A stretch of DNA of 13,476 bases, from contig JAUWYL010000028.1 in assembly GCA_030615855.1 (NCBI GenBank), forward strand, positions 1-13,476, in the 5' to 3' direction. This DNA is from a bacterium. Its GTDB lineage: Bacteria > UBP18 > UBA7526. Below are positions 1-10,148 of this stretch, in pieces. A model generated the notes under the pieces. That model searched no databases and was not told the DNA's origin. It saw only the letters and a list, made by a program, of their open reading frames with translations. The translations under genes were made by a program, and so were the position numbers. The first letter of the stretch is position 1. Each line of letters opens with the position of its first letter.

Positions 1-1286
1 CCCGCAAGGTAAAGAACGATGGAGCAAAATACTTCGGTCCCTATACCAATGCCAAAGCCATCCGCCAAACCCTAAAATTCCTAAGGACCCTCTTTCCCAT
101 CAGGACCTGCAAGAGGAAGATTGGCAAAAAGCCCTTGAAACCATGTCTTAACTATCATATTAAAAGGTGTTTTGCACCCTGTGCCGGAAAGATTAGTAAA
201 GAAGACTATCGAAAAGTAGTGGATGAGGTTGGCCTATTCTTAAAAGGAGAAAGGAGGGCGCTGATAAAGAGTTTAGAGAAGAGGATGAAAGGGGCGAAGG
301 AATCTCTAAAATTTGAAGAAGCCATTATACTACGCGATCAGATAAGATCCTTGGAGAAGATAAGCGCCAGACAGAAGGTTGTCTCGACGAGGCCCATAGA
401 TCAGGATGTCATTGCTTTCGCCTTAGGCCCGGACAATGCCTGCAGCCAGATATTTTTCATTCGTAAAGGAAAACTCATTGGTGGAGAGCACTTCTTCTTG
501 AAGGGGATAAAGGATAAATCTAAAGAGGAGATTCTAACTCCTTTAGTAAAACAGTATTATTATAATGCGATTTATATTCCAAAGGAGGTTGTTCTCCAGA
601 ACGAGATAGAGGAAAAAGAGTTAATTAAAAGCTATCTTGGGAAGAAGGGCAAACGGAGAGTTAGATTAATTGTCCCCCGAAAGGGAGATAAGTTGAAGCT
701 AATTAAATTGGCCGAGAGGAATGCTCGCCTTGCGCTTACTCAGAAATATAGCGCCAGCCAACAGATGAAGAAGGAAGCCTTAGGAGAATTACAGAGGACC
801 CTGGGATTAAGAGATCTTCCCTTCAGAATAGAGGCCTTCGATATCTCAAACATAAGCGGAACTTTAGCCACTGGCTCACTGGTGGTTTTCAGGGGGGGTG
901 AGCCAGATAAGAATGAATATCGCAGATTTAGAATTAAAAGGACACGGGGGGTCGATGATTATGCTATGATGGCTGAGGTAGTAGAGAGACGCTATAGGCG
1001 TCTTTTGAAAGAAAGAAAGATTCTGCCCGATCTAATCTTAATCGATGGGGGAAAGGGCCAACTTAGTGCTGCCTTAAAGGTCTTAAAGAGATTAAAAATA
1101 AAACTTCCCGTTGCTGCCTTAGCCAAGGAGTATGAGCATCTCTTCATTCCAGGAAAATTACCCCCCATTATCCTGGCTAAAAATTCTTCTGCATTATATC
1201 TTTTAAAGCAAATCAGAGACGAAGCCCATCGCTTCGCTTTAGCTTACCACAGAAAACTAAGAAAGAAGAAAATTATTCATGACTAA
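1..1286 (+). CDS. uvrC: UvrABC excinuclease subunit C, 5'-truncated by the window edge and lacking the C-terminal HhH domain
   Basis: UvrC makes the dual incisions of nucleotide excision repair after UvrAB loads it at a lesion. The frame is open from base 3, so the start lies outside the window and about 427 residues are visible. The first residues match the end of the GIY-YIG domain (KYFGPYTNA, then the FPIRTCK and CFAPCAGKIS segments). A UVR motif (UvrB-binding helical hairpin, KFEEAIILRDQI) follows. The RNase H-like nuclease domain has the family acidic residues in FDISNISG (codon at 840), VDDYAMM (954/957) and LIDGGKGQ (1044), and the conserved His in RDEAHRFAL (1227). Only 18 residues follow that His, whereas E. 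coli UvrC has about 70 including a tandem helix-hairpin-helix, so that DNA-binding domain is absent. The stop overlaps the next gene by 8 bp (ATGACTAA), suggesting translational coupling. Identification is firm; the missing domain is seen directly, its consequence is inferred. Confidence 0.96.
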   Translation, partial: RKVKNDGAKYFGPYTNAKAIRQTLKFLRTLFPIRTCKRKIGKKPLKPCLNYHIKRCFAPCAGKISKEDYRKVVDEVGLFLKGERRALIKSLEKRMKGAKESLKFEEAIILRDQIRSLEKISARQKVVSTRPIDQDVIAFALGPDNACSQIFFIRKGKLIGGEHFFLKGIKDKSKEEILTPLVKQYYYNAIYIPKEVVLQNEIEEKELIKSYLGKKGKRRVRLIVPRKGDKLKLIKLAERNARLALTQKYSASQQMKKEALGELQRTLGLRDLPFRIEAFDISNISGTLATGSLVVFRGGEPDKNEYRRFRIKRTRGVDDYAMMAEVVERRYRRLLKERKILPDLILIDGGKGQLSAALKVLKRLKIKLPVAALAKEYEHLFIPGKLPPIILAKNSSALYLLKQIRDEAHRFALAYHRKLRKKKIIHD

Positions 1287-1560
1287 ACTCGATTTGAGCG
1301 GTCTCACTCCTTTTCAGAGGAAGGCCTTGGAAGTAGTAAAGACCATTCCCTATGGAGAGACAAGGACCTATAAATGGGTAGCCAGGGAAATGGGAAATCC
1401 AAAGGCAGCCCGGGCCGTAGGCCAGGCTTTGAAAAGGAATCCCTATCCTATAATTATTCCCTGCCACAGGGTAATCCGTAGCAATGGAAAATTAGGAGGC
1501 TACTCAAAAGGAACCCAGAAAAAGAAAAGACTCCTTAAAGAGGAAGGAGTTACTAGATAG
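1279..1560 (+). CDS. ogt: O6-alkylguanine-DNA alkyltransferase, C-terminal DNA-binding/active-site domain only
   Basis: This 93-residue protein is the MGMT/Ogt active-site domain by itself. The helix-turn-helix part carries a Tyr at 31 and the Arg finger at 45 (NPKAARAVGQAL). The acceptor motif IPCHRV follows, with Cys62 as the nucleophile that would take the alkyl group from O6-alkylguanine, then GKLGGYSKG. The N-terminal ribonuclease-like domain of Ada/Ogt/MGMT (roughly 80 residues) is missing. In this it resembles the alkyltransferase-like (ATL) proteins, which hand lesions to excision repair; those usually have Trp in place of the Cys, and here the Cys is kept. The ATG lies inside the end of uvrC, so the two are almost certainly co-transcribed and probably co-translated. 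It could be an active self-inactivating transferase, a lesion flag for UvrABC, or both. The fold assignment is strong; the exact role is inferred. Confidence 0.93.
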   Translation: MTKLDLSGLTPFQRKALEVVKTIPYGETRTYKWVAREMGNPKAARAVGQALKRNPYPIIIPCHRVIRSNGKLGGYSKGTQKKKRLLKEEGVTR

Positions 1561-4070: not shown

Positions 4071-4095
4071 ATCATTCGCACGAATGAGCGAATGA
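4071..4095 (+). repeat. palindromic intergenic repeat, copy 3
   Basis: ATCATTCG (4071-4078) begins the same 24-bp core (4072-4095) seen in copies 1 and 2, in the same orientation. It lies in the 90-bp gap before secA. A TAGAAT (4067-4072) overlaps its left end, but no credible -35 box is at the right distance, so I do not call a promoter here. Confidence 0.85.
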
Positions 4096-7408: not shown

Positions 7409-8929
7409 ATGAGATATCGCTCAATGTTTCTGGCCATTCTCTCTGGAATTTTACTTATTTTTATCTTTCCTACTGTACTATTTGGCTATCACTTCCCCGA
7501 TTTAGGAATTTTAGCCTGGATAGCATTAGTCCCGCTCTTCTTAGCTATTAAAAATAAGAGCCCAAAGAACGCCTTCGGTCTGGGTCTCCTTGCTGGATTG
7601 GTAAGCTTCTCAATAATTCTTTACTGGATAAGGATTCTTTCTCCTCTAATCGGCCTTCTTATTTTAGCCTTTTACCTCGCTCTCTACATCGCCCTCTTCT
7701 GTTTTTTGTTTAATCTCTGTTTACGGTTTACGGTTTACGGTTTACGGTTTATTGTGGCTCCCTGTTTGTGGGTTGCCTTAGAATATCTCCGCTCCATTTT
7801 TCTATCCGGCTTTCCCTGGGCCCTCTTAGGACATAGCCAGTATCTAAACATACCTCTCATCCAGATTTCAGAGTTCACTGGAGCCTATGGAGTCTCATTT
7901 TTGATTGTCCTAGTGAATGCTACTATCGCCTATAGAATAGGCGAAGTCCAAAGTCCAAAGTCCAAAGTCAGAAAAATTCTTCCAATTGCAATAGTGGCAA
8001 TCATTGTGGGCGCTTGCTTTACTTATGGGAAATTGATGCTTCGTGCCTCACACCTCACACCTCGCACCTCAGAACTAAAAGTGGGTATTGTTCAGGGGAA
8101 TGTTGATTTAGAGGAGAAGTGGAGCGAAATTCTTCACGAAAAGGTCTTGGATACCCATATCAGATTGACAGAAGAAGTAGCAAAAGAAGAGCCAGAACTA
8201 ATTGTCTGGAGCGAGACCGCTACCGCTTCCTGTCTAAAACATGAGGAAGGGGATTTAGCCAAACTCTCAAATTTAGCGAAAAAATTAAAAAGCCATTTAC
8301 TCATCGGCTCTTTAGATCTGGCTACCCAGGGTGACTATTACAATAGTGCCTTTCTCATCTCTCCCCAAGGCAATATCGCCTATCAATATAATAAGGTCCA
8401 TCTGGTTCCCTTTGGAGAGGTTATTCCTCTAAGGAGACAGATTCCTCTTTTGGCCAGGTTGGTGGAGGGAATGGGGGGAGGAGGCTTTAGGGCAGGAGAG
8501 GAATTAACCATCTTTGATATAGATGGGAAGAGGTTCGGAGTACTAATCTGTTACGAGGGGCTCTTCGATAATCTGGTAAGAAAGTTTGTCAAAAAAGGTG
8601 CCGACTTTATGATTAACATTACCAATGATGCCTGGTATGAGAGAACGTCCGCTCCCTATCAGCACTTCTCATTTTCCATTTTCCGAGCCATAGAGAATAG
8701 GGTTCCCATTGTTCGGGCAGCAAATACCGGGGTCTCGGGATTTATCGATTCCTACGGAAGAATAAGAAAGGATTTAGACATCTTCATTGAAGGAACCCTG
8801 GTTGATAAGATTAGTCTGAAGAAACAGGAGACCTTCTACACCAGATTCGGCAACCTCTTCGCTTATCTCTGCCTAGGCCTAAGCGGCCTTCTCTTAATCG
8901 GGGCACTAATTAAGAAAAAGAGACATTAA
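7409..8929 (+). CDS. lnt: apolipoprotein N-acyltransferase
   Basis: Lnt adds the third acyl chain to the N-terminal Cys of lipoproteins in the inner membrane, the step before Lol sorting. The 506 residues (E. coli 512) comprise an N-terminal set of membrane helices, a nitrilase-like catalytic domain from about residue 220, and a final helix (LFAYLCLGLSGLLLIGALI) with a basic end. The triad is Glu269 (IVWSETAT), Lys329 (YNKVHLVPFGE) and Cys381 (LICYEG), matching E. coli E267, K335 and C387. NITNDAWYERTSAPYQH and RAIENRVPIVRAANTGVSG are the usual later motifs. AAGGA (7398-7402) lies six bases before the ATG. Three runs of heptamer tandem repeats lie inside the coding sequence, at about residues 104-115, 179-188 and 213-222, in loops and the linker before the catalytic domain. 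The gene appears intact despite them. Confidence 0.96.
   Translation: MRYRSMFLAILSGILLIFIFPTVLFGYHFPDLGILAWIALVPLFLAIKNKSPKNAFGLGLLAGLVSFSIILYWIRILSPLIGLLILAFYLALYIALFCFLFNLCLRFTVYGLRFIVAPCLWVALEYLRSIFLSGFPWALLGHSQYLNIPLIQISEFTGAYGVSFLIVLVNATIAYRIGEVQSPKSKVRKILPIAIVAIIVGACFTYGKLMLRASHLTPRTSELKVGIVQGNVDLEEKWSEILHEKVLDTHIRLTEEVAKEEPELIVWSETATASCLKHEEGDLAKLSNLAKKLKSHLLIGSLDLATQGDYYNSAFLISPQGNIAYQYNKVHLVPFGEVIPLRRQIPLLARLVEGMGGGGFRAGEELTIFDIDGKRFGVLICYEGLFDNLVRKFVKKGADFMINITNDAWYERTSAPYQHFSFSIFRAIENRVPIVRAANTGVSGFIDSYGRIRKDLDIFIEGTLVDKISLKKQETFYTRFGNLFAYLCLGLSGLLLIGALIKKKRH
7719..7751 (+). repeat. GTTTACG heptamer tandem repeat inside lnt
   Basis: Four exact GTTTACG units (7719-7746) plus GTTTA. 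They encode LRFTVYGLRF at about residues 105-114, between two membrane helices. The reading frame is kept. Confidence 0.9.
7944..7971 (+). repeat. AAGTCCA heptamer tandem repeat inside lnt
   Basis: Three exact AAGTCCA units (7944-7964) and a fourth, AAGTCAG. They encode the hydrophilic loop EVQSPKSKVRK between two membrane helices. Confidence 0.9.
8046..8073 (+). repeat. CCTCACA heptamer tandem repeat inside lnt
   Basis: Two exact CCTCACA units, then CCTCGCA and CCTCAGA. They encode ASHLTPRTSE, the linker between the last N-terminal membrane helix and the catalytic domain (which begins LKVGIVQGNVD). Confidence 0.88.
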
Positions 8930-9045: not shown

Positions 9046-9055
9046 GGGGAATGAA

Positions 9056-10148
9056 ATGATTGAAGAATTGACAAAAGAACTGGAGAGACTAAAAAAGGGA
9101 CTAGAAGAGATAAGGGGCTATCTTTGACTTAGATGAGTGTAGAAAAGAGATCGAAAGGTTAGAGAAGGAGACCCTGGTCCCGGACTTCTGGAAGGATAGG
9201 AAGAAGGCAGCCAGCACCACAAAGAGGTTAAATGCTCTAAAGACGAAACTCAACTCCTGGACGAAGTTGAAAGAGGATTATGAGGAGTTAGAGGTATATT
9301 TAGAGCTTCTAAAAGAGAAAGAGGATGAGAAGGTAATCAAAGAGGTTCAGGAAGGAATCTCTGAACTCTCTAAGGAGCTGGATAGCCTAAAACTAAAGAG
9401 CATGCTTAAGGAGGAAGAAGACCCCAATAACGCCATTCTCTTCATTCATGCTGGTGCCGGAGGAACGGAGTCCTGCGACTGGGCAAATATACTCTTGAGG
9501 ATGTATCTCAGATGGGTAGAGAGGAAGGGATACAGTTCCCAGATTCTCCATATTACTGGTGGAGAGGAGGCAGGAATAAGATCGGCAACCCTCCTCATCA
9601 GTGGCCTCTATGCCTATGGGTATCTTAAGGCGGAGAGCGGGGTCCATCGGTTAGTAAGAATCTCTCCCTTCGATGCCGCAAAGAGGAGGCATACCTCCTT
9701 CGCCTCTGTCTTTGCCTCTCCCGAGATCGATGAATCCATAGAGGTAGAGATTAAGGATGCTGATTTAAAAATAGATACCTATCGGGCAAGTGGGGCAGGA
9801 GGACAGCATGTCAATGTCACTGACTCCGCGGTAAGGATAACCCATCTTCCCACCGGGATTGTTGCCCAGTGCCAGAATGAGAGGTCGCAGCACCAGAATA
9901 AAGCAACCGCTTTAAAGATTCTACGTTCCCGACTATTCGAGTATTATCGAGAAAAAGAAAGGGAGAAATTGGCTGAGATTGAGAAGAAAAAGAAGAAGAT
10001 TGAGTGGGGCTCCCAGATCCGCTCCTATGTCTTACATCCCTATAGAATGGTCAAGGACCATCGGACAAACTTAGAGAAAGGAAATGTGGATAAGGTTCTG
10101 GATGGAGAGATAGATGAGTTCATAGAGGCCTACTTAACGCGTGCTTGA
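9056..10148 (+). CDS. prfB: peptide chain release factor 2, with programmed +1 frameshift
   Basis: RF2 releases finished proteins at UGA and UAA codons. Translation starts at ATG 9056 (AGGGGGA at 9044-9050, five bases upstream), reads 23 codons ending GYL and meets an in-frame TGA at 9125-9127. A +1 shift at CTT TGA C moves into the frame starting GAC 9126, giving a 363-residue protein (E. coli 365). This is the classic RF2 autoregulatory site: low RF2 makes the ribosome pause at UGA and slip. The internal Shine-Dalgarno-like element reads AGGGGC (9113-9118) three bases before CTT, against the common AGGGGG. The UGA-recognising tripeptide SPF is at residues 203-205 and the catalytic GGQ at 248-250 (E. 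coli 205-207 and 250-252). The TGA stop overlaps the -35 box of the lysS promoter. Confidence 0.97.
9113..9128 (+). promoter_or_regulatory. programmed +1 frameshift site of prfB
   Basis: The elements are AGGGGC (9113-9118), TAT, the slippery CTT (9122-9124), TGA (9125-9127) and the following C (9128). The ribosome is expected to slip from CTT to TTT so that GAC is read next. Only the shifted frame carries the SPF and GGQ motifs. Confidence 0.93.

Follow-up and report, generated by a model that had tools for sequence, protein, structure and literature searches.

A conserved uvrC-alkyltransferase gene pair with two coinciding domain losses in the candidate phylum UBP18

In a genome of the candidate phylum UBP18, we found that a uvrC gene whose product lacks the C-terminal tandem helix-hairpin-helix domain, (HhH)2, overlaps a gene coding for a minimal O6-alkylguanine-DNA alkyltransferase (AGT). 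The explanation that we favor, with reasonable but not full confidence, is that of a conserved, probably co-expressed ancient repair gene pair whose members work independently, with no obligate UvrC-AGT complex. Two domain losses coincide in this pair, and the missing HhH tail and the AGT neighbor look like independent traits. A functional tie between uvrC and the AGT gene is likely at the level of the operon; a new complex is not proven.

The stretch of DNA that was analysed (the window, 13,476 nucleotides) is the entire contig C12 of the 1.38-Mb assembly G000. The features of the locus are as follows.

1..1286 (frame 3-1286), + strand: 3' part of uvrC, 427 of 541 codons, ending without (HhH)2 (ORF, Pfam/NCBIfam, contig overlap)
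792..1238, + strand: RNase H-type endonuclease domain of UvrC (5' incision), PF08459, E about 1.1e-55 to 5.3e-55
1227..1229, + strand: catalytic His codon of the RNase H domain, then 18 codons to the stop (sequence; RDEAHRFA motif conserved in relatives)
1279..1286, + strand: 8-bp overlap between the end of uvrC and the start of the alkyltransferase gene, ATGACTAA (sequence; same in G004 and G005)
1279..1560, + strand: minimal AGT (also MGMT), C-terminal half only, 93 aa (PF01035, TIGR00589)
1411..1413, + strand: Arg45, arginine finger (AARAVG; alignment with solved AGTs and relatives)
1462..1467, + strand: Cys62-His63, alkyl acceptor and catalytic His (PCHRVI; sequence, alignments)
1543..1545, + strand: Glu89, third residue of the Cys-His-Glu triad (alignments)

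Elsewhere in the window, the inverted repeat TCATTCGCACGAATGAGCGAATGA occurs in perfect copies at 1624-1647, 2130-2153 and 4072-4095, two of which flank an ArsR-type gene, as do the same two copies in G004. It is probably a dispersed palindromic repeat, with 11 sites at ≤2 mismatches in its own genome versus 1 for the reversed pattern. prfB (about 9050-10148) contains the classical in-frame TGA (CTTTGAC at 9122) and continues in the +1 frame, so that synthesis of release factor 2 probably relies on programmed frameshifting. Furthermore, three short arrays of 7-/8-bp tandem repeats lie in the coding frame of an lnt-like gene (7719-7751, 7944-7969 and 8046-8071).

Contig C43 carries the 5' part of uvrC and ends in an exact 141-bp overlap with the start of C12. 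Joining both contigs yielded a 541-aa UvrC that begins with MRLEERIRSLPQSCGVYLFKD...ILYVGKAANL and has a GIY-YIG-type N-terminus, an assignment made by eye and from the tree. Pfam detected the UVR motif, PF22920 and PF08459, and the protein scored 422.8 bits against TIGR00194, above the cut-off of 285.45, with the catalytic residues of the RNase H domain present. The translated frame ends with RDEAHRFALAYHRKLRKKKIIHD and a stop codon, 18 residues beyond the catalytic His. (HhH)2 gave no Pfam match in UvrC, the NCBIfam matches end before this domain (TIGR00194 at 538 of 574, NF001824 at 590 of 652), and two relatives likewise lack it. An earlier, sequence-only reading, whose interval (1044-1560) takes in only the 3' end of uvrC, had described a UvrC stopping at this very point with the HhH pair absent, and the ORF, Pfam and NCBIfam bore this out. 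G000 also encodes UvrA and UvrB. A search with UvrC HhH tails for an HhH relocated to a gene of its own matched only larger frames, the best of which was RadC.

The 8-bp overlap and the domain content of the downstream gene were also as first described, namely only the DNA-binding half of MGMT with the Cys and the Arg finger kept. PF01035 spans residues 11-91 of 93 (E 1.3e-36) with 10 residues preceding it, leaving no space for the AGT N-terminal domain. Activity does not strictly depend on this domain, and half-AGT fusions are known (PMC10779285). Alignments with solved AGTs and relatives showed that the active-site set is intact (Tyr31, Arg45, Asn54, Cys62, His63, Tyr75, Glu89). Judging by its sequence, the protein, which is the sole PF01035 match in G000, is of the AGT type and not an alkyltransferase-like protein (ATL).

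We considered whether a frameshift or assembly error could conceal an HhH, the latter a possibility that the sequence-only reading had itself raised. Among the six genomes that make up our sample of this little-known phylum, G005 (UBA7526) and G004 (CSMAG_2758) carry the identical HhH-less uvrC end and the identical overlap with the AGT gene, thereby excluding such an error. An insert of 8-bp repeats (L003:5120-5219) interrupts the uvrC frame of G004, and the AGT of this genome (L003:6311-6619) reads PCYRVI, with the catalytic His changed to Tyr and a stop shortening its end. These alterations suggest that the G004 locus may be decaying or misassembled.

We then examined uvrC in 145 genomes of about 140 families. 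An AGT gene adjoins uvrC in about 15 lineages, mostly as a full-length AGT gene following an HhH-bearing uvrC (G141, G279, G139, G074, G345, G217, G134, G272, G032, G181, G316, G155, G051 and L012); in G124, an HhH-less uvrC overlaps a full-length AGT gene. By a rough estimate, chance would produce well under one such adjacency in this sample. That an AGT gene comes immediately after uvrC in many lineages that are not related makes a link at the operon level likely, with co-transcription of both genes probable, and to this extent the proposal that UvrC and the AGT act together stands. We found no paper on a uvrC-ogt operon in the open-access text, titles and abstract beginnings that were searched. 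Many uvrC-adjacent AGTs have a recognition helix with SYxW(V/L/I)A, but this motif was ruled out as a marker of uvrC-associated AGTs because other AGTs carry it too.

An AGT reduced to its catalytic half was found near uvrC in UBP18, in the phylum of G120 (three genomes in our survey), in family f198 (G244, G371) and in G213. A lytic transglycosylase-like gene lies between uvrC and the AGT gene in G120 and f198, where UvrC is HhH-less and 431-440 aa long (L110, L179, L180, L186, L187). These UvrC proteins are about 100 residues shorter than those of UBP18, and the stretch from the UVR motif to the RNase H domain is apparently missing; Helicobacter felis and H. suis also lack the middle region of UvrC (PMC9426483). 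In G213, the minimal AGT lies beside an HhH-bearing UvrC whose frame is split in the assembly. Cys-type minimal AGTs also occur in G215, G149, G220 and G336, with no uvrC within the stretch examined.

Could this arrangement be plain synteny inherited within related phyla, with no functional tie between uvrC and the AGT gene? The cluster extends to secA, as in the window: secA directly follows the AGT gene in G213, two cold-shock genes intervene in G120, and the ArsR-type gene and a TPR gene intervene in the window. Part of the conservation may therefore be general synteny. Furthermore, in a 94-row UvrC tree from which the HhH columns were left out, one starred clade (98) groups UBP18, the G120 phylum, f198, G213, G032, G181, G316 and G080. 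An AGT neighbor is present in 12 of the 13 rows of this clade, suggesting that the pair is probably ancestral there, and the AGT tree, which has few columns and weak support, roughly mirrors the clade (82). However, the pair also occurs outside this clade (G141/G279, G134/G272, G139, G074/G345/G217, G155, G124, G051 and L012), and the minimal AGT remains beside uvrC across large distances. We therefore regard synteny alone as a possible but rather improbable explanation.

UvrC proteins without HhH were found, besides UBP18, in G135, G080, G136, G118, G018, G124, G108, G087 and G120, as well as at loci L043 and L077; loci L031 and L071 run off their contigs. With the exception of UBP18, G120 and G124, none of these HhH-less lineages, nine in number, has an AGT gene adjoining uvrC, although in G080, counted among the nine, the contig stops 176 bases after uvrC (this genome gave no PF01035 match). 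These counts bear on the hypothesis that the minimal AGT substitutes in trans for the HhH, binding DNA at the alkyl lesion and recruiting or positioning the HhH-less UvrC so that reversal and excision are combined. The (HhH)2 domain has been described as needed for single-stranded DNA binding and 5' incision (PMC7835731). Consistent with substitution, the two genes overlap in three UBP18 genomes, of the four lineages in which a minimal AGT adjoins uvrC, three have an HhH-less UvrC, and ATL, which likewise consists of an AGT half, makes contact with UvrA and UvrC (PMC7835731, PMC10779285). A Fisher test on lineage counts also revealed a weak excess of HhH loss with an AGT neighbor (p 0.01 including UBP18, 0.04 without it, and 0.15 after the related lineages f116 and f198 were merged), p values that ignore relatedness and come from a sample chosen in part for its similarity to the window. 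This weak excess, together with the three of four minimal-AGT lineages, speaks against our preferred explanation; the association itself is not robust to relatedness.

Several observations oppose substitution. HhH-less UvrC proved to be common without the AGT neighbor in the co-occurrence survey that the sequence-only reading had suggested, an outcome that this reading had itself listed as refuting its idea. Most AGT neighbors accompany an HhH-bearing UvrC, as does the minimal AGT of G213. The HhH state requires 11 changes on the UvrC tree, where an independent-pairs test with few informative pairs detected no co-variation between HhH loss and AGT adjacency. H. pylori with a disrupted HhH was not markedly more sensitive to UV (PMC9426483). 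Furthermore, G002, a member of the same family as the window's genome, retains the AGT after an apparent loss of excision repair. Its uvrC has shrunk to a short in-frame remnant that is joined with the following gene, and only about the first 50 codons of uvrA are left, inside a contig; internal deletions lie behind both remnants (uvrA, L184:1791-2060; uvrC, L111:3466-4218). UvrB and Mfd had no good match in this assembly, which is 85% complete, and at that completeness nucleotide excision repair looks lost. The G002 AGT is intact (PCHRVI, Arg, Glu) and is under purifying selection (dN 0.10 and dS 0.52 relative to the window copy, dN/dS about 0.19). Its retention without uvrC indicates that, in this line, the AGT is evidently independent of UvrC. 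The suggestion that the AGT domain replaces the lost HhH thus gained no support, and such a replacement is unlikely. We give similarly little credence to a dual role in which the minimal AGT would both reverse O6-alkyl lesions and serve as the DNA-binding partner of the HhH-less UvrC, the overlapping pair choosing between reversal and excision.

The active cysteine of ATL proteins is usually replaced by tryptophan. Having lost this residue, ATL proteins have no transferase activity (PMC10779285), and the presence of Cys62 rules out ATL identity for the 93-aa protein. The ATL precedent of lesions steered to excision, to which the first reading appealed, applies by analogy alone, since the active Cys is kept here. 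That the protein is an ATL-like sensor marking lesions for excision repair with no real transferase activity is highly improbable: its size and domain content are typical of ATL and its matches include the ATL structures 3gva and 2kif, but Cys62, His63 and Glu89 are intact and full AGTs match far better (E 3e-22) than ATLs do (E 8e-13, 4e-8).

We thus return to a conserved repair gene pair with independently working members. The uvrC product would be the dual-incision nuclease of nucleotide excision repair with its C-terminal (HhH)2 lost, whereas the minimal AGT would flip out the alkylated base by means of Tyr31 and Arg45 and pass its alkyl group on to Cys62. Both genes were probably inherited as a pair from an ancestor common to several other candidate phyla, and within that group the AGT N-terminal domain would have been lost in some lines and the UvrC HhH in others, as separate events. 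The likely benefit would be joint dosage, with small O6-alkyl lesions handled by direct reversal and bulky lesions by excision.

That the uvrC-AGT pair recurs in different phyla points to joint production, in many bacteria, of the means for reversing alkyl damage directly and for excising it. The pair also offers small proteins that bear on whether AGT, like ATL, communicates with the Uvr system. Furthermore, judging by its repeated natural loss from UvrC, (HhH)2 would seem to be less essential than work in E. coli implies.

Compared with known systems, the window UvrC shares with the UvrC family (TIGR00194) a GIY-YIG-type N-terminus, a UVR motif and an RNase H-type nuclease that retains the DDH residues, but differs by the lack of the C-terminal (HhH)2. 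This domain is known to vary within the family: in Helicobacter, a lineage that has excision repair, it is reduced to a single HhH or absent, and UvrC likewise breaks off behind the RNase H domain (PMC9426483). Helicobacter is, however, an unrelated lineage, and an AGT neighbor is not mentioned in the parts of that article consulted. The window alkyltransferase shares with Ogt/AGT proteins (TIGR00589, PF01035) the whole C-terminal catalytic half, including PCHRV, the Arg finger, Tyr, Asn and Glu, but is missing the N-terminal domain. With ATL proteins (Atl1, E. coli ATL) it has in common an AGT half of about 100 aa without the N-terminal domain; ATL, which contacts UvrA/UvrC, is without the active Cys, whereas the window protein keeps it. 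The AGT C-terminal half also occurs without the N-terminal domain in AGT-EndoV of Ferroplasma acidarmanus, where it is tied to a repair endonuclease, and in AGT-2 of C. elegans (PMC10779285). The window AGT is a separate polypeptide adjoining UvrC rather than a fusion.
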